From Levilinea saccharolytica (GTDB lineage: Bacteria; Chloroflexota; Anaerolineae; Anaerolineales; Anaerolineaceae), in contig NZ_LGCM01000018.1 of NCBI RefSeq assembly GCF_001306035.1, positions 1 to 36,694 on the forward strand: DNA of 36,694 nucleotides, in the 5' to 3' direction. Shown in pieces: positions 29,560-35,407 of the stretch. Positions within the stretch are counted from its first letter, which is position 1. Each line of letters starts with the position of its first letter. Both the position numbers and the translations under genes were made by a program. Below the pieces are notes generated by a model. That model saw nothing but the letters and a program-made list of their open reading frames with translations, ran no database searches and was not told the origin of the DNA.

Positions 29560-30377
29560 CCCTCTGGCAATCCATCCTTCTCGGTATTGTGCAAGGCATC
29601 ACCGAATTCCTGCCGGTCTCCAGCTCCGGGCATCTGGTGCTGGTTCCTTTTCTGCTCGGCTGGAAAATCCCCACGGATCAGGCCTTTATCTTCGACGTCC
29701 TTGTGCAGATCGGCACCCTCCTGGCCGTCATCGTGTACTTCTGGCGCGACCTGTGGGCCATCCTGCGCGGTCTGTACCGCGCCGCTTTGCACCGCAGTCT
29801 GACCGATGAACCCGACGCCAGGCTGGGCCTGCTGCTCATCCTGGCCACCATCCCCGCCGGGCTGGCCGGGCTGCTCTTAAAAGACCTGGTGGAACAGGCC
29901 TTCGGCAGCCCGCGTGCCACGGGGTTCTTCCTGCTGATCACCGCCGTTCTGCTGTGGGTCGCCGAAACTGTGGGCAAGCGCTCGCGCCCCCTGACCAGCC
30001 TCACCTGGAAAGACGCCTTGTGGATCGGCGCCGCTCAGGCCCTGTCCATCTTCCCCGGCATCTCCCGTTCCGGCTCCACCATCGCCGCGGGCGTCTCCCG
30101 CCACTTCCAGCGCGCCGATGCCGGCCGCTTCTCCTTCCTCATGATGATCCCCGTCATGTCCGCTGCTGGCCTGCTCAGCTTTTTGGACCTCTTGGAAGCG
30201 CCCAACTTCACCAGTTTCCTGCCCATCGTCCTGGCAGGCTTCATCACCTCTGCCGTGGTCGGCTACGCCTGCATCGCCTGGCTGCTGCGCTTCCTCAACC
30301 GCAACTCGCTCAAAGGCTTTGCCTATTACTGCCTGGGGGCGGGTCTGCTGCTCATTTTGTGGACGTATGTCATCTAG
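29556..30377 (+). CDS. uppP: Undecaprenyl-diphosphate phosphatase
   Basis: This membrane enzyme (also called BacA) converts undecaprenyl diphosphate to undecaprenyl phosphate, the lipid carrier for cell-wall synthesis. The 273-residue protein has QGITEFLPVSSSGHLVLV at the N-terminus, and FPGISRSGSTIAAGV near 165-180, the two signature repeats with catalytic Glu and Arg. It has about seven to eight membrane segments. The ATG overlaps the tgt stop, a coupled start. The next gene begins 11 bases inside its end. Confidence 0.95.
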   Translation: MTLWQSILLGIVQGITEFLPVSSSGHLVLVPFLLGWKIPTDQAFIFDVLVQIGTLLAVIVYFWRDLWAILRGLYRAALHRSLTDEPDARLGLLLILATIPAGLAGLLLKDLVEQAFGSPRATGFFLLITAVLLWVAETVGKRSRPLTSLTWKDALWIGAAQALSIFPGISRSGSTIAAGVSRHFQRADAGRFSFLMMIPVMSAAGLLSFLDLLEAPNFTSFLPIVLAGFITSAVVGYACIAWLLRFLNRNSLKGFAYYCLGAGLLLILWTYVI

Positions 30378-31107
30378 GCTTTTTTTGGCCGTTGGAATGC
30401 TGTTCCTCCTGGCAGGCTGCGCACCCCTGCCCGCCGCCGAAGTGCCGCCTTCCGCTGCCCCCTGGATCATCGAAATCGAACCGTCTCTCAGCTGGATGGG
30501 AGATGCCTTCTCAGCCTGCGCCCTGCGGCAGCCCGGCTTCCATCTGGTCGTCGAAGAGGTTCCCCCCACCCAGCCGCCTTCCCCCTCCGCTGCCGTGCGC
30601 TTTCAATGGGGAGACGGCGGCATCGAGGAGCGCAGCGCCTACCCCATCGGTCAAGACTCCCTGGCCTTTGTGGTCAACCCGGCCAACCCCGTCGCTGAAC
30701 TCACCTACGATCAGATTCAATCCCTCTACACTGCCCAACTGCGCTCCTGGCGAACGGTCAACGGCGAGCAGGCCGCGGTGAACACCCGCATCCATTATTG
30801 GGTCTATCCCCTCGGCAATGAGGTGCAAACCGCCCTGGAAGAAGGCCTGCGTATTCAGCCCCACAACGCCCAGGCCGTCGGAATTGCCCCCCACCCCCAG
30901 GCCATGCGCCAGGCCGTCGCCGCTGACCCCGCGGCTGTGGGCTTCCTGCCCCGCCGCTGGCTGGATTCCTCAGTAAAAGAAATCGCCCTCACCGGCGCGC
31001 CCTTTGATCCCCCCGCCCGACCCATTTTGGCCGTCTCCGCCGCCGCCCCCAGCGGCAGCCTGTACACCTGGCTGTACTGCCTGCAAGAAACCTATGCTTC
31101 CCCCTAA
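30367..31107 (+). CDS. PstS-like substrate-binding lipoprotein
   Basis: This 246-residue protein begins MSSRLFLAVGMLFLLAGCAP with lipobox LLAGC, so it is anchored outside the membrane. The body has FVVNPANPVAELTYDQIQSLYTA and SWRTVNG blocks that recall PBP-like domains of the PstS type (tungstate/phosphate/molybdate binders), then VGFLPRRWLD. No ABC permease or ATPase is adjacent, so it may work as a sensor or partner rather than as a transport component. The start was chosen for the signal peptide and overlaps the uppP stop by 11 bases. No ribosome site is obvious, so coupling is probable. Confidence 0.78.
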   Translation: MSSRLFLAVGMLFLLAGCAPLPAAEVPPSAAPWIIEIEPSLSWMGDAFSACALRQPGFHLVVEEVPPTQPPSPSAAVRFQWGDGGIEERSAYPIGQDSLAFVVNPANPVAELTYDQIQSLYTAQLRSWRTVNGEQAAVNTRIHYWVYPLGNEVQTALEEGLRIQPHNAQAVGIAPHPQAMRQAVAADPAAVGFLPRRWLDSSVKEIALTGAPFDPPARPILAVSAAAPSGSLYTWLYCLQETYASP

Positions 31108-31122
31108 AAGGTACGCCCGCTG

Positions 31123-31839
31123 ATGGTTCAATCCGAAGAATCCAACACCGCCCTGCTTGCTTTGATCCCCAAGAGCGAATTTCTTTCGGGCTTCAGCACA
31201 CCCTTCCTCAATGCCCTGGTGCAGGGCGCACGTCTGCGCCTTTGCAGCCCCAACCAGACTCTGTTTTGGGAAGGCGAGCCGTGCGCTGGCCTGCACATTC
31301 TGGAAAGCGGCGCGGTCAAGCTGTACAAAATGGCCCCCAACGGCCGCCAGCTCACCATTCGCATCATCGAAACCCCCGGCCAATCCTTTAACGAGGTCCC
31401 CGTGCTGGATTTGGGGAAAAACGCCGTCAACGCCTCGGCGCTCGAGGAAACCCGCCTGTGGGTCATCTCTGCTGAAACCGTGCAGGCCGCCATGCGCGCC
31501 TTCCCCGACCAATATCAAACCATCGTCCTCAAGCTGTCGGCCAACCTGCGCAGCATGATTCAGATCATCGAAGAGCTGGCCTTCTATCAGGTCACCGCCC
31601 GTTTGGCGCGCCTGCTGCTCTCCCTGCCGCCCCAGCGCCTGACCGGTGAAGAAAACCAACGCCTCACCCAGCAGGAACTGGCTGCCCGCCTGGGGACGGT
31701 GCGTGAGGTGGTGGCCCGCTCTCTGCGCGACCTGGAACGCAGCCGCGCCATCCAGATTCACCGCCGTCAGATTCTGATCCTGGATCCCCAGCGTCTGCAA
31801 GCCTGGGCTTCCGGCTCCCCCGACCTCGAAGAGGAATAA
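31123..31839 (+). CDS. Crp/Fnr-family transcription regulator
   Basis: This 238-residue regulator has a cyclic-nucleotide-binding fold (about 20-140; FWEGEPCAGLHILESGAVKLYK) and a C-terminal winged helix (about 165-230; LTQQELAARLGTVREVVARSLRDLE). It lacks the N-terminal Cys cluster of Fnr, so an oxygen-sensing iron-sulfur cluster is unlikely; the effector is unknown. It lies 15 bases after the lipoprotein gene and convergent to nrfHA, which carries a CRP-type palindrome at a class II position. Regulation of nrfHA by this protein is a testable inference. Confidence 0.9.
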   Translation: MVQSEESNTALLALIPKSEFLSGFSTPFLNALVQGARLRLCSPNQTLFWEGEPCAGLHILESGAVKLYKMAPNGRQLTIRIIETPGQSFNEVPVLDLGKNAVNASALEETRLWVISAETVQAAMRAFPDQYQTIVLKLSANLRSMIQIIEELAFYQVTARLARLLLSLPPQRLTGEENQRLTQQELAARLGTVREVVARSLRDLERSRAIQIHRRQILILDPQRLQAWASGSPDLEEE

Positions 31840-31843
31840 TAAA

Positions 31844-31867
31844 ACAGCCGCCCTTCTGGGCGGCTGT
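31844..31867. terminator. Terminator between crp-like gene and nrfA
   Basis: ACAGCCGCCC (31844-31853), loop TTCT, GGGCGGCTGT (31858-31867). On the minus strand a TTTTATTATT tract follows, so it mainly serves nrfA; on the plus strand it may also stop the crp-like run. Confidence 0.8.
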
Positions 31868-31886
31868 GATGGAAATCTTCTAAGGC

Positions 31887-33188
31887 TTAAGGCTGGCTGG
31901 CCTGACTGCTTCCCAACCCAGCCTGCACGGCCTTCAGCTGCGCTTGCCGCGCCAGGTCGGTGGCGGTAGCCAAAATGCGCAGGGCCTCTTCTGGGTTATG
32001 AAAGCCCATGCTGTTTTCGGCGGCGATCAAATCCCAACGCATCTGCGCTTCGCGGTGCATTTGGCGCGCCTCGTCCAGCAGGGCCGTATTAACGCCCGCG
32101 GCTTTGCTGGCGGTCTCAATCGCCCCAATGGCGTCCACAATCGCCCGCTCTGTCGCCAGCATGGTGTCGTTCACCTGCTTTTGAATGGCCGCCACCCGCT
32201 CCACCACGTAATCTACGTCCGTGTGGCAGGTTCCGCAGCTCTGCGAAGCCATCAGCAGCGGAGATTTGACATCATGGCTGCTGAACTTGGCCGCACCGTC
32301 GCGCGTGTAGGGCATGTGGCAGTCCGCGCAGGCCACGCCCGCTTTGTAATGCGTACTGTCCGCCGTGAACAGCTCATAATCCGGATGCTGCATCTTGATC
32401 ATGGCCGTCTTACTCTGCGGATGTTCCCAGTCCTTGAACTGGATTTCGTCGTAGTACGCCATCATGGCTTCGGCGGTTGTGCCCTTCTCCCACGGGAAGG
32501 TCAGGTACTTGCCTTCGCCCGCGAAGTAATACTCCACATGACAGTTGGCGCACACCACCGTGCGCATCTCCTGCCGCGTGAAGGTGCGCCAGTCCTTGCC
32601 CTGGGCCTTGAGAGCCTCATCTAAGGCCGGGTTGGTCACCACCAGGCGCATGGTCGCCGCGTCGTGGCAGTTGGCGCAGCCAATTGGCTCGGTGATCTTG
32701 GAGGTCATATCGGCAAAGGACATCTTGTCATAAGCCGCCATGCCCATCTCATCCCACAGCTTGGGGTTATCAGACGACTTGCAGGAATAGCAGGTGGCCG
32801 GAGTCGTCTCGTTGACGCGCGGCGTATTGCGCACATCCGTCAGGGCGTTCATATGTCCGCGATCTTCATCATACGCCTTGCTGAACCCATATCCGGCAAA
32901 AAGCGTCTTCAGCATGGGGTCCACCGCCAGCTTGTCCACCGGCTCCGAACCGCCAAAAGCGGTGCGCGTATTGTTGGTTTCCGTCTTCAGCAGCGTGGAA
33001 TACTGATTGGGGAAATTCAGCCCCCACTGCGCGCTGTCCGGTTCCATGGCCGCGATCACCACCAACGGTTCAACCCCCCGCATCGGCTTGGGTTGGTTGC
33101 TGATGAACACCAGCAGGGCAATCACCAACGCCGACAGCGCAAGGATGATGCCGGTTACAATCATGACAGGTAAAGACGGTTTCTTCAT
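31887..33188 (-). CDS. nrfA: Ammonia-forming cytochrome c nitrite reductase
   Basis: This pentahaem enzyme reduces nitrite to ammonium with six electrons outside the membrane. Of 433 residues, the first 30 form an uncleaved-looking membrane anchor or signal (MKKPSLPVMIVTGIILALSA). The haem motifs in order are CYSCK (Cys133-Lys137, the active-site haem), CANCH, CANCH, CADCH and CGTCH. CANCHVEYYF and KMQHPDYELF match the calcium and active-site region of the family. The start at ATG 33188 was chosen because GAGAGGTGATTGTG lies before it, five bases after the nrfH stop. It forms an operon with nrfH. Confidence 0.95.
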   Translation of the reverse strand: MKKPSLPVMIVTGIILALSALVIALLVFISNQPKPMRGVEPLVVIAAMEPDSAQWGLNFPNQYSTLLKTETNNTRTAFGGSEPVDKLAVDPMLKTLFAGYGFSKAYDEDRGHMNALTDVRNTPRVNETTPATCYSCKSSDNPKLWDEMGMAAYDKMSFADMTSKITEPIGCANCHDAATMRLVVTNPALDEALKAQGKDWRTFTRQEMRTVVCANCHVEYYFAGEGKYLTFPWEKGTTAEAMMAYYDEIQFKDWEHPQSKTAMIKMQHPDYELFTADSTHYKAGVACADCHMPYTRDGAAKFSSHDVKSPLLMASQSCGTCHTDVDYVVERVAAIQKQVNDTMLATERAIVDAIGAIETASKAAGVNTALLDEARQMHREAQMRWDLIAAENSMGFHNPEEALRILATATDLARQAQLKAVQAGLGSSQASQP

Positions 33189-33193
33189 CACAA

Positions 33194-33685
33194 TCACCTC
33201 TCTCGCAAAGGTTGGTACGTGCCTGTGTCCTGGTAGGGCAAAATGGAAATCCCGCGGTCCCCGTGCGCCACGCTGCGGTGGCATTCAAAGCAGTAGCGCC
33301 CGGAATCCATCGTCCCGTCCGCCACCATCGAAACAGTCTCTTGGTGACAGTAAATGCAGTTCGCCTGGATGATTTTTTGGGTTGATTCTTTGGCGCGCAG
33401 CGGTTCGGGCAAATGGCCGATGGTGAAGGCCGAAACGTGGTTAAACCCCGATTTGGCTTTCACAAAATACTTGGGAATGAACTCGTGCGGCGTGTGGCAG
33501 TCGTTGCAGGTGGCCCACTGCTTATGCCCCGCGTGATACCAGCCCTCGTACACGGCGTCCATCACGTGGCAGTTATTGCAGGCTGTCGGGTCATTCCCCA
33601 GATAGACGGTAAAGTCCGATAAATACAGAAGCATTCCCACGGCCACTGCCAGGAGAATTAACCCAATGGTGATCGGTAGTTTCAT
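33194..33685 (-). CDS. nrfH: Cytochrome c nitrite reductase small subunit (quinol dehydrogenase)
   Basis: This NapC/NirT-type tetrahaem protein takes electrons from menaquinol and passes them to NrfA. The 163 residues begin with one membrane helix (PITIGLILLAVAVGMLLYLS). The four haem motifs are CNNCH, CNDCH, CIYCH and CFECH. GAGGGAGCGGTC precedes ATG 33685. It is the first gene of a two-gene operon; a CRP-type palindrome and a -10 box lie upstream. Confidence 0.95.
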   Translation of the reverse strand: MKLPITIGLILLAVAVGMLLYLSDFTVYLGNDPTACNNCHVMDAVYEGWYHAGHKQWATCNDCHTPHEFIPKYFVKAKSGFNHVSAFTIGHLPEPLRAKESTQKIIQANCIYCHQETVSMVADGTMDSGRYCFECHRSVAHGDRGISILPYQDTGTYQPLRER

Positions 33686-33727
33686 GACCGCTCCCTCGCC
33701 AATTCGGGGTAATTTAATCTTGATTTA

Positions 33728-33733
33728 ATTTTA
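33728..33733 (-). promoter_or_regulatory. -10 box of nrfHA
   Basis: Minus strand TAAAAT, with its expected transcription start near 33721, gives a leader of about 36 bases. The palindrome at 33754-33769 then centres at about -41. Confidence 0.5.
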
Positions 33734-33753
33734 CGGGATTGGGTTCTTTTGTC

Positions 33754-33769
33754 TGTGACTTAAGTTACA
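33754..33769. promoter_or_regulatory. CRP-type operator upstream of nrfHA
   Basis: TGTGA-CTTAAG-TTACA matches TGTGA-N6-TCACA at all but one position and is a near-perfect palindrome. Its place, about 41 bases before the inferred nrfH start, is that of class II activator sites. It overlaps the stop of the hydrolase gene. Confidence 0.6.
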
Positions 33770-34676
33770 TTGTGTCCGCGGTGCCGGACCCGTTGCCGTT
33801 CTTCTTGTCCTTCCGGGTAAAAAGTTGGAACAAGTTGCGCTTGGGCGGCTTGGGCAGCCGCACGTGCTTCAGCAAAAATGGATGCACCAGATGGTAAAAA
33901 TCCTCAAACGCTTCTCGCCGGATATTGTGCCCCACACCGTCAATCACCCCCACGCTGCCCTGCTTCCAAAACTTCGCCGCTTCTTCGGCCACCGCCGGGG
34001 TCACAATCGCCCCACGCTGCGGATCACCGCACACCAGCAGCACCGGGCAGGTGATGGCCTGGGCCGTCTCTTGCCACGGCCGCCGCTCTGCCTGGAAAAA
34101 TCCAGCCACCTGAGGGCGCACTTGCTGTTTGGCCTTCGCCCATTGGAAAAATTCACTTTCATCCCAGGTGGGATTATCCGCGCGCCCGGCAGTTATGATT
34201 TCATCTAAAGTTTTTTGGCGGTTGCTCATCATCCGCCCCATCATGCCTTCCACCATCGCATGCCAATCCGCCGGGTTCTCTTCCGGCGTCGGGTTGCGCC
34301 AGGCGGGGTCTTCCAACACCAAAGCCCCCACCAGTTCTGGGTGTGCCGCCGCCAATTCCGCCGCGGTCATCGCCCCCATGGAATGGCCGATCACCCCTGG
34401 TTTTTCCAACCCCAGCTCGCGAATCACCGCAGCCACATCTTCAGCCTGTTCGCGGGGGGCGTAGCCGCCTTCCGGCGCGTCCGAAAGGCCGTGCCCGCGC
34501 GCATCCACCATCACCAGGTCAAAATCCGCCTCCAACGCCAGGGCCAGGTTTCCCCAGCACATGCCGTTATCGCTCAGTCCGTGCAGCAGCACCAGCGGCG
34601 GCTTTTGATCGGAGGTGCGGTAATAGTGAATCTTCGCGCCCTCATGCAGAACGTGTCCGTAAAATAAGCGTGACAT
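33765..34676 (-). CDS. Alpha/beta hydrolase
   Basis: This 303-residue protein has the oxyanion loop VLLHGLSDNGMCW, VDARGHGLSD, the nucleophile elbow GHSMGAM, the acid-strand region CPVLLVCGDPQRGAIV and the catalytic His in GVGHNIRREAF. The substrate is unknown. The C-terminus is a Lys/Gly/Asn-rich tail (RKDKKNGNGSG). ATG 34676 follows the stop of the upstream gene by four bases. Its own stop lies within the nrfHA operator. Confidence 0.88.
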   Translation of the reverse strand: MSRLFYGHVLHEGAKIHYYRTSDQKPPLVLLHGLSDNGMCWGNLALALEADFDLVMVDARGHGLSDAPEGGYAPREQAEDVAAVIRELGLEKPGVIGHSMGAMTAAELAAAHPELVGALVLEDPAWRNPTPEENPADWHAMVEGMMGRMMSNRQKTLDEIITAGRADNPTWDESEFFQWAKAKQQVRPQVAGFFQAERRPWQETAQAITCPVLLVCGDPQRGAIVTPAVAEEAAKFWKQGSVGVIDGVGHNIRREAFEDFYHLVHPFLLKHVRLPKPPKRNLFQLFTRKDKKNGNGSGTADTM

Positions 34677-34680
34677 GGGT

Positions 34681-35070
34681 TTATTTCCCAAAAATCAGAA
34701 CGCGCCAAATCATCCAGTTAGGCGCACGGGTGGGCGCTGGAAGCACGGGTACATTGGGGGTCGGCGTGCCTTCCGCACCCGGGATAGGGATGATGGCGAT
34801 ATCCCCTGGGCGCACATGTGACAGGTCTTCGCGGATCACCCCTTCCACACCCACTTCCGAGCCTGCCGCGCTGACAGCGGTGCTCAGCGCAAAATCGGTG
34901 GCCTGCATGCCGCCCACTTCGCCCATGATGCGCGTTAACTGCTGATTCTGCTCGTGCAAAATGGTCAGGCGGTTGTTTAAATCCATCAACAACAGCACCA
35001 GGATCGCCAGCGCTCCAAAGATCAATACCTGCTGTGGTTTAAAAGGGAGTTCAAACTTTCCAATGCGCAT
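34681..35070 (-). CDS. Small bitopic membrane protein, FtsB/DivIC-like
   Basis: This 129-residue protein has one membrane segment near the N-terminus (about 14-30; VLIFGALAILVLLLMDL), a short coiled coil (NNRLTILHEQNQQLTRI), then VEGVIREDLSHVRPGDIAIIPI. The last block resembles the region after the coiled coil in septum-formation initiator proteins (FtsB/DivIC), which stabilise the division complex. A Pro/Thr-rich tail follows. This assignment rests on layout, not on a strict signature. A TTGTAT-17-TAAGAT promoter ends 6 bases before ATG 35070, suggesting a leaderless message. The hydrolase gene follows after four bases. Confidence 0.6.
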   Translation of the reverse strand: MRIGKFELPFKPQQVLIFGALAILVLLLMDLNNRLTILHEQNQQLTRIMGEVGGMQATDFALSTAVSAAGSEVGVEGVIREDLSHVRPGDIAIIPIPGAEGTPTPNVPVLPAPTRAPNWMIWRVLIFGK

Positions 35071-35121
35071 ATCAGTATCTTACCCCAGCCGCGCGTTCAA
35101 TACAAGCCTTAGCCGCCCAGG

Positions 35122-35150
35122 AAAAGAAAAACCCCGTCTTTCGACGGGGT
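35122..35150 (-). terminator. Terminator after tRNA-Leu
   Basis: ACCCCGTC (35131-35138), loop TTTC, GACGGGGT (35143-35150). On the minus strand a TTTTTCTTTT tract follows. Confidence 0.85.
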
Positions 35151-35153
35151 GTG

Positions 35154-35237
35154 TGCCGAAGGTGGGATTTGAACCCACACGAGCGTAAGCCCACTACGCC
35201 CTGAACGTAGCGCGTCTGCCAATTCCGCCACTTCGGC
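35154..35237 (-). tRNA. tRNA-Leu (CAG anticodon)
   Basis: The minus strand folds as a class II tRNA: acceptor GCCGAAG with CTTCGGC, a D arm with GGCGGAATTGGCAGAC, the anticodon stem CTACG-TTCAGGG-CGTAG giving anticodon CAG, a long variable arm, and the T arm with GGTTCAAATCC. The discriminator is A, as expected for leucine. The CCA end is not encoded. It has its own promoter and terminator. Confidence 0.96.
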
Positions 35238-35259
35238 GCTTTCAGAACCAACGAACAGA

Positions 35260-35287
35260 ATTTTATCTCAAATCTGCCATTTGTCAA
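35260..35287 (-). promoter_or_regulatory. Promoter of tRNA-Leu
   Basis: Minus strand TTGACA (35282-35287), a 16-base spacer and TAAAAT (35260-35265). The tRNA 5' end lies about 22 bases beyond the -10 box. Confidence 0.8.
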
Positions 35288-35407
35288 CCTTTTCATTTGG
35301 TTTCTCGCAAATTTCCTCCCTTTCGACCTGCCCTCCAGCGCGGAACGGCTCTTGCAACTCCGTTAACAGGTTGCCTCCTGAAAATGGCCTCATTAGAATG
35401 ACCGTGC

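Follow-up and report, generated by a model that had tools for sequence, protein, structure and literature searches.

A 16-base palindrome before the nrfHA operon of Levilinea saccharolytica very probably acts as a switch for the neighbouring Crp-family regulator, and we consider it highly likely that this is a class II site through which the regulator activates nrfHA. A dimer of the Crp/Fnr-family protein would bind the palindrome and, centred at about -41, would contact RNA polymerase as a class II activator, taking the place of a poor -35 element; nrfHA would be expressed whenever the regulator is active. The initial annotation of the window (the whole stretch of DNA analysed, 36,694 nucleotides) had predicted an activating operator for nitrite ammonification, and the features that we computed argue for one: the site itself, a near-fixed spacing to the -10 hexamer, the way regulator and operator occur together, the opposed order of the genes, and the specificity residues of CRP type that the regulator carries. 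Binding by the regulator, activation rather than repression, and the signal are what we infer. Crp/Fnr proteins are known to control nrf elsewhere, so the proposed circuit is of a known kind; many related bacteria have both the regulator and the switch.

Sludge, anammox reactors and sediments commonly harbour Anaerolineae. A clear NrfH is present in 27 of 101 relatives of L. saccharolytica, yet the open-licence PMC literature that we found, some of it in excerpt, names no regulator of NrfH for Anaerolineae; a search of the same literature turned up no publication about regulators of nrf in Chloroflexi/Chloroflexota, and no description of the regulator group, the operator or the promoter geometry in Anaerolineae. 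With a regulator, a sharp operator and a near-fixed promoter geometry, the control of nitrite ammonification in this phylum can be put to the test, and the operator and geometry make target genes predictable from DNA.

The nrfH promoter and its gene neighbourhood

The nrfH gene (33194-33685, minus strand) encodes the tetraheme quinol dehydrogenase subunit, with four CxxCH motifs and a TIGR03153 score of 158.2 bits against a curated cut-off of 134.2; nrfA (31887-33188, minus strand) encodes the pentaheme ammonia-forming nitrite reductase, recognised by PF02335 (Cytochrom_C552; 449.7 bits) and carrying one CxxCK and four CxxCH heme motifs. The gene of the predicted nrfHA activator (31123-31839, plus strand), assigned to the Crp/Fnr family from PF00027 and PF13545, its orthologue set and its model, faces nrfA, which bears out the convergent arrangement first described. 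Between these two genes lies a terminator-like hairpin (31844-31867, minus strand); hairpins of this kind number 5 in 31000-35300 against a shuffle mean of 4.9, and are not significant as a class. Upstream of the regulator gene in the window is a phosphate-binding-protein-like gene (30319-31107). In seven relatives (L087, L093, L095, L109, L110, L125 and L127) the regulator is, as read by eye, often preceded by phosphoribosyltransferase-like and membrane-protein genes, with a PriA-like gene further upstream in several of these loci.

The palindrome, TGTGACTTAAGTTACA at 33754-33769 on the forward strand, occurs as an exact 16-mer once in the genome (4,230,078 bases, or 4.23 Mb, in 65 contigs). 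Read in the direction of nrfH, on the minus strand, it is TGTAACTTAAGTCACA, one mismatch from TGTGA-N6-TCACA and symmetric at 7 of 8 positions, with its centre at 33761.5, 76 bases upstream of the nrfH ATG. The -10 hexamer of the nrfH promoter, TAAAAT (minus strand, 33733-33728), matches TATAAT at 5 of 6 bases and lies 28 bases from the middle of the palindrome. If the hexamer is assigned to -12 to -7, the nrfHA transcription start would fall at about 33721 (minus strand) and the palindrome centre at -40.5, in keeping with the earlier estimate of some 41 bases before the start and within one base of -41.5, the centre of a canonical class II operator; the same one base separates the offset of 28 from that commonest among relatives, 29. 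The palindrome had been described as lying within the end of the hydrolase gene (33765-34676, minus strand; alpha/beta hydrolase, PF00561). The two do overlap, but only by the last five bases of the gene (33765-33769), that is 5 of the 16 palindrome bases, with the TAA stop codon inside the palindrome.

Scanning the window for TGTGA-N6-TCACA with up to two mismatches gave 11 matches where shuffles led us to expect 9.8; the loose pattern is no commoner there than chance would have it, and the case for the site therefore rests on comparison with relatives. As to autoregulation, no palindrome with up to two mismatches was found within 1.5 kb before the regulator gene in the window.

Regulator and operator among relatives

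A first comparison searched for NrfH and the regulator in 101 genomes from the genus, family and order of L. saccharolytica. NrfH gave some match in 37 of these and a clear one in 27, and 27 nrfH loci from these 27 genomes were scanned upstream; the ten genomes with weak matches were not counted as NrfH genomes, and of two strong copies in G100 the second (C147) was left out. Regulator matches at E 1e-20 were obtained in 35 of the 101, and ten genomes stand apart as a distinct best-match group, scoring at least 164 bits with 39 to 100% identity, the next match scoring 122 bits. The palindrome together with a -10 hexamer at class II spacing preceded nrfH in 6 of 6 genomes with an orthologue, against 3 of 21 without (Fisher p = 0.0003); for the palindrome alone the figures were 6 of 6 and 5 of 21 (p = 0.0016). 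Regulator and nrfHA adjoin and converge in five of those six genomes; the sixth, G084, has nrfH at a contig end and nrfA with the regulator on a second contig. All ten orthologue genomes have a palindrome, within two mismatches of TGTGAC-N4-GTCACA, before a target operon, and in all ten a -10-like hexamer follows at an offset of 28 to 30 bases, measured from the centre of the palindrome, 29 corresponding to -41.5. The sites in G067 and G092 were picked by looking before one shared operon type and so lend weaker support; in G067, moreover, the hexamer is poor (AAAAAT) and site and regulator are on different contigs. The flanks of the palindrome differ among relatives.

Two nrfH loci from related genomes without an orthologue, L005 and L010, show an FNR-like TTGATTAATGTCAA some 70-80 bases before nrfH, and nrfHA in these genomes may be under a different Crp/Fnr protein.

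A second comparison was built on the regulator, not on nrf: a profile of the ten regulators (A1), used with two seed patterns of which one is the recognition helix, found 151 relatives, and the loci of the best 80 of the 151 were kept. All 80 carry Chloroflexi/Anaerolineae names, including one Herpetosiphon and one Candidatus Aquidulcis; four share contigs with genomes already met (L075 = G001, L143 = G092, L148 = G084, L151 = G086), and related genomes are not independent samples. NrfA is encoded at 49 of these best 80 loci of 151, downstream of the regulator and on the opposite strand in 49 of 49, at distances of 6 to 4,855 bases and within 1 kb in 43. NrfH is encoded at 45 of the same 80 (best of 151), and before it the palindrome (up to two mismatches) and a -10 hexamer (at least 4 of 6) stand together in 40, the offset between them being 29, or -41.5, in 36, 28 in 3 and 30 in 1; by the inferred -10, the L. 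saccharolytica site, with its offset of 28, thus shares a class II position at about -41.5 with these relatives. Resampling the upstream regions under a first-order Markov model (100 rounds) gave site plus hexamer in none of the 45 in any round (mean 0.0, maximum 0), and site alone in a mean of 0.24 of 45. The exceptions among the 45 are L081, which has no site, L115, which has a site and no -10 hexamer, and L105, L108 and L111, where a three-mismatch site has its -10 hexamer in place. Over the 982 kb of loci, the pattern with up to one mismatch made 82 strand hits (about 41 places) against 0 for its reversed control, and with two mismatches 116 against 51.

A third comparison took 33 regulator genomes, those of 32 of the 35 loci without NrfH and of L081; L091, L143 and L148, also without NrfH, were left out. 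NrfH at E 1e-25 was present in 19 of the 33, two of which repeat operons already counted, L081 (no site) and L108 (three mismatches). Where nrfHA was not in the stretch beside the regulator, site and -10 hexamer, at offset 28 or 29, were found in 17 of 17 promoters; at L156, L159, L161 and L173 the regulator contig ends close by, so nrfHA may truly adjoin the regulator there. NrfH at E 1e-25 was not found in 14 of the 33 genomes. L092 and L096 among them have NrfA beside the regulator, and L099, L106, L117 and L119 have, whole or in part, an operon of the type encoding a 511-residue protein (see below); no target was found in the other eight (L085, L097, L109, L112, L113, L118, L123 and L128), so the link between the regulator and nrfHA is not an exclusive one. 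Gene contents of the loci without NrfA were read by eye, a few of their proteins being run against Pfam.

Choosing the site on the palindrome, without regard to the -10 hexamer, gave one in 59 of 63 nrfH promoters of regulator genomes (37 distinct sequences), a set that contains those of the 45 loci and the 17 operons, L157 and L158 having been dropped as the operons of L081 and L108. A match to TATAAT of at least 5 of 6 fell at exactly offset 29 in 42 of the 59 and at 28 in 5; the control at offset 29 on the mirror side gave 1. The middle of the site is asymmetric, with A at positions 8, 9 and 10 in 32, 38 and 38 of 40, which fits a directional promoter. Position 6 is C in 27 and T in 13 of these 40 sites, and position 11 is G in 35 and A in 5.

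Other operons preceded by the site, and the signal

A search for the same motif before other nitrogen genes, proposed in the initial annotation, succeeded in relatives, where it precedes an octaheme operon and nirS, but not in the L. saccharolytica genome, where our scan gave no convincing second target besides nrfHA. In G066 and G091 the stretch around the regulator holds no NrfA; the site is followed there by an operon for a NapC/NrfH-like cytochrome (PF03264) and a 453-residue octaheme protein, which has eight CxxCH motifs and matches Multi-haem_cyto (PF13447), an HAO-type octaheme cytochrome; the domain matches are those obtained for G066. The octaheme operon at L091 has a perfect site, with TAACAT at 28.

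At L043:4144-6066 and L044:5656-7581 a pair of NapC/NrfH-like and HAO-type octaheme genes replaces nrfHA beside the regulator, behind the same operator with a perfect TATAAT; the pair is a candidate Anaerolineae octaheme enzyme for reducing nitrite or hydroxylamine.

Ten whole genomes were also scanned with a strict composite pattern, consisting of the operator, 21 bases and TANNNT, which made nine matches (0 to 2 in each genome) against none for the reversed control. Six of the nine are targets already named. Another, in G084 (L178:1528-1543, C74), precedes a cytochrome cd1 gene (NirS, PF02239) with cytochrome c domains; one in G092 precedes a cupin-DUF166 pair beside another Crp-type gene; and one in G086 lies, as read by eye, after a fumarate-reductase-flavoprotein-like gene. 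In the L. saccharolytica genome (G000) there were 0 matches, the pattern missing the nrfH site because the spacing there is one base shorter. Four candidate second targets in this genome (C5:19057, C8:81301, C24:17130 and C39:323) were set aside, none giving a strict composite match, although the same is true of the nrfH site. The sequence TGTGAAAAAGGTCACA, lying between two genes, is conserved in both Levilinea-like genomes, at G000:C8:81301-81316 and G001:C65:22948-22963. At L068:1501-1516, in G071, a perfect TGTGACAAATGTCACA stands upstream of an Rrf2-family regulator gene (PF02082), which is followed by what by eye is a cydA-like gene.

The regulator lies near the operon of the 511-residue protein at five of the best 80 loci of 151: L099, L106, L117 (part of the operon), L119 and L143. 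At L099, L106 and L143 a site was seen at this operon; none was seen at L117 or L119, where the contig breaks off close to the start of the operon. The corresponding operon of G067 also has a class II operator, with a poor -10 hexamer, and that of G092 includes FGE-sulfatase-like and UbiA-like genes. The protein itself (L143:10976-12508, minus strand; homologues in L106, L119, L099 and L064) is a multi-helix membrane protein with no Pfam match. Its model, of low confidence (pLDDT 59), resembles subunit I of heme-copper oxidases: Foldseek returned no match at E 0.001 or better, with probabilities up to 1.00, and VIA-align gave Z scores of 20.1 to a cbb3 oxidase and 17.6 to an NO reductase, on a scale where unrelated helical models can reach about 14. 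A heme-copper-oxidase-like fold may be suspected from this model, as a lead.

In relatives, then, the same site precedes other nitrogen-oxide enzymes, HAO-type octaheme and NirS, and a heme-copper-oxidase-like operon, from which we infer that the regulator probably responds to NO, to nitrite or to something else that nitrite reduction yields. To name NO or nitrite as the signal, direct or indirect, is more tentative, a judgement that we hold slightly short of even and that draws on regulon content only. A broader proposal seems to us evenly balanced: that a distinct Anaerolineae subgroup of Crp/Fnr proteins, with neither FeS cysteines nor the cyclic-nucleotide pair, is a nitrogen-oxide regulator, and that one conserved class II promoter architecture has been moved between enzymes unrelated to one another but all handling nitrite or what is made from it, namely NrfHA, the HAO-type octaheme complex, NirS and the divergent complex of heme-copper-oxidase-like type.

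The regulator, competing binders and known systems

The regulator belongs to the Crp/Fnr superfamily (PF00027, 62.7 bits; PF13545, 56.9 bits; both above cut-off), and its AlphaFold model (pLDDT 85, pTM 0.64) has the CRP/FNR fold, matching structures of CRP, GlxR, DNR and HcpR in Foldseek with no clear winner. We aligned 44 regulators, the window's sequence and 43 of the 80 from the loci. The recognition helix, GTVREVVAR, includes T192, V193, R194, E195 and V196, which with R199 are invariant in 44 of 44; the helix having been one of the two seed patterns for the 80 loci, this invariance is partly by selection. With the helix placed by eye, R194, E195 and R199 correspond to R180, E181 and R185 in CRP numbering, the residues of TGTGA-type specificity, and they are present too in 10 of 10 orthologues from the whole-protein search. 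The R and E at CRP positions 180/181 are, according to the available excerpt of PMC1274295, correlated with bases of the site. The regulator had been said to lack an Fnr cluster, and does: C41 and C54 are its only cysteines (present in 1 and 37 of 44), so it has no four-cysteine cluster of the kind found in FNR, the 4Fe-4S oxygen sensor. His58 (H in 24 of 44) and Cys54 (C in 37 of 44) were considered as heme or thiol ligands and dropped; neither is invariant, and no ligand residue is named.

In CRPs, an Arg-Ser (or Arg-Thr) pair holds the phosphate of the cyclic nucleotide, and Mtb CRP has Arg-Thr at the aligned positions. In the 44 regulators the corresponding residues 100-102 are mostly N-P-V (N, H or S at 100; P, A or V at 101; V, I or A at 102), with no Arg in 44 of 44, and cAMP is an unlikely ligand because the pair is missing. 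It is for this reason improbable that the regulator would act at the palindrome as a cAMP-dependent CRP in carbon control and not as a nitrogen-oxide regulator, as the CRP-type site and fold, with CRP and GlxR as best solved-structure matches, might have suggested; the strict composite, with its 0 to 2 matches in each genome, also points to a small regulon, albeit with a pattern that misses the L. saccharolytica site.

We rate as marginally less probable again that the NADH/NAD sensor Rex uses the palindrome as its operator, repressing nrfHA when NADH is low. Rex sites, TTGTGA-N6-TCACAA, do resemble the palindrome. In the excerpts available of PMC5701242, moreover, Rex is said to bind sites identical to those of HcpR1. 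Every one of the ten orthologue genomes has the Rex-type domain PF06971, but so do 14 of the 21 nrfH genomes that lack an orthologue; 10 of these 14 have no site before nrfH, and G070 has a site but no PF06971 match; this distribution weakens the case for Rex, the site tracking the Crp gene better. A position near -41.5 with a -10 hexamer and no good -35 element is, besides, the geometry of an activator; positions 6 and 11 of the site are C/T and G/A, where the Rex consensus has A and T; and the adjoining gene is of Crp type.

Slightly lower still we place binding by another Crp/Fnr protein, with the neighbouring gene incidental. Its ground is the palindrome before nrfH in 5 of 21 genomes without an orthologue (up to two mismatches; three with a -10 hexamer), from which it follows that another protein can use such sites. 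A search of the L. saccharolytica genome (97.65% complete) with the HTH_Crp_2 profile gave 17 matches, however, of which two were strong (67.8 and 59.1 bits) and the next scored 29.5; the nine best were read, the seven after the strong pair (L194-L200) as other kinds of regulator, and the last eight scored 20.8 bits or less. The second strong match, with the helix GTTLFTVSR, is the only other clear Crp/Fnr protein found here and lacks the TGTGA-reading Arg-Glu pair. Regulator and operator, furthermore, co-occur even when not adjacent. That the palindrome arose around the stop codon by chance and has no function, for which one might cite the frequency of the loose pattern in the window, no higher than in shuffles, has a negligible likelihood: its conservation in 59 of 63 nrfH promoters, with differing flanks, makes a chance origin untenable, and over the 982 kb the pattern with up to one mismatch made 82 strand hits (about 41 places), its reversed control none.

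The proposed class II control, in which the adjacent Crp-family regulator would activate nrfHA, has partial counterparts elsewhere. The half-sites here are TGTGAC, not the TTGAT of FNR. Activation of nrf by FNR in E. coli, related in the excerpt of PMC12285233, is likewise the work of the Crp/Fnr family, but the L. saccharolytica regulator has no Fe-S cysteines and the operon is of a different type. In Shewanella oneidensis, by Table 1 of the same excerpted review (PMC12285233), cAMP-Crp controls nap and nrf, again a CRP-type control of nrf, although the cyclic-nucleotide Arg-Ser pair is missing here. Wolinella succinogenes NssA, NssB and NssC, also Crp/Fnr-superfamily activators of nrf but in a different phylum, raise nap and nrf upon nitrate, NO or N2O (excerpts of PMC8139620 and PMC12285233). 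In the portion available, the table of this review, which dates from 2025 and deals with the regulation of nrf, covers four organisms: E. coli, S. oneidensis, W. succinogenes and D. vulgaris (PMC12285233).

HcpR of delta-proteobacteria and clostridia shares with the present system a TGTGA-N6-TCACA operator, nrfHA as a target and the lack of FNR cysteines: in the excerpt of PMC1274295, Desulfovibrio HcpR has the site wTGTGAnnnnnnTCACAw, a CRP-like R180 and no FNR cysteines, and the HcpR regulon is predicted to include nrfHA in Desulfuromonas and Geobacter, whose site consensus, however, is different. The HcpR structure of P. gingivalis gave the highest query TM-score (0.71, at 22% identity) among the 50 Foldseek matches listed. 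The hcp gene (Prismane, PF03063) has no match in the L. saccharolytica genome (G000); it is present in 5 of the 10 orthologue genomes, with no site of up to two mismatches in the fetched stretch around any of them. This absence of hcp, and of signs of hcp control, weakens a reading of the regulator as HcpR.

An anammox-reactor study reports, in the portion available, no identifiable CRP/FNR protein in three Anaerolineales genomes among the 16 most active (PMC8510549); it used annotation names, and the regulator group described here suggests that such proteins may have been missed. The published genome of L. saccharolytica KIBI-1, of 65 contigs and 4.30 Mb, includes NrfA and NirS (PMC4653796).
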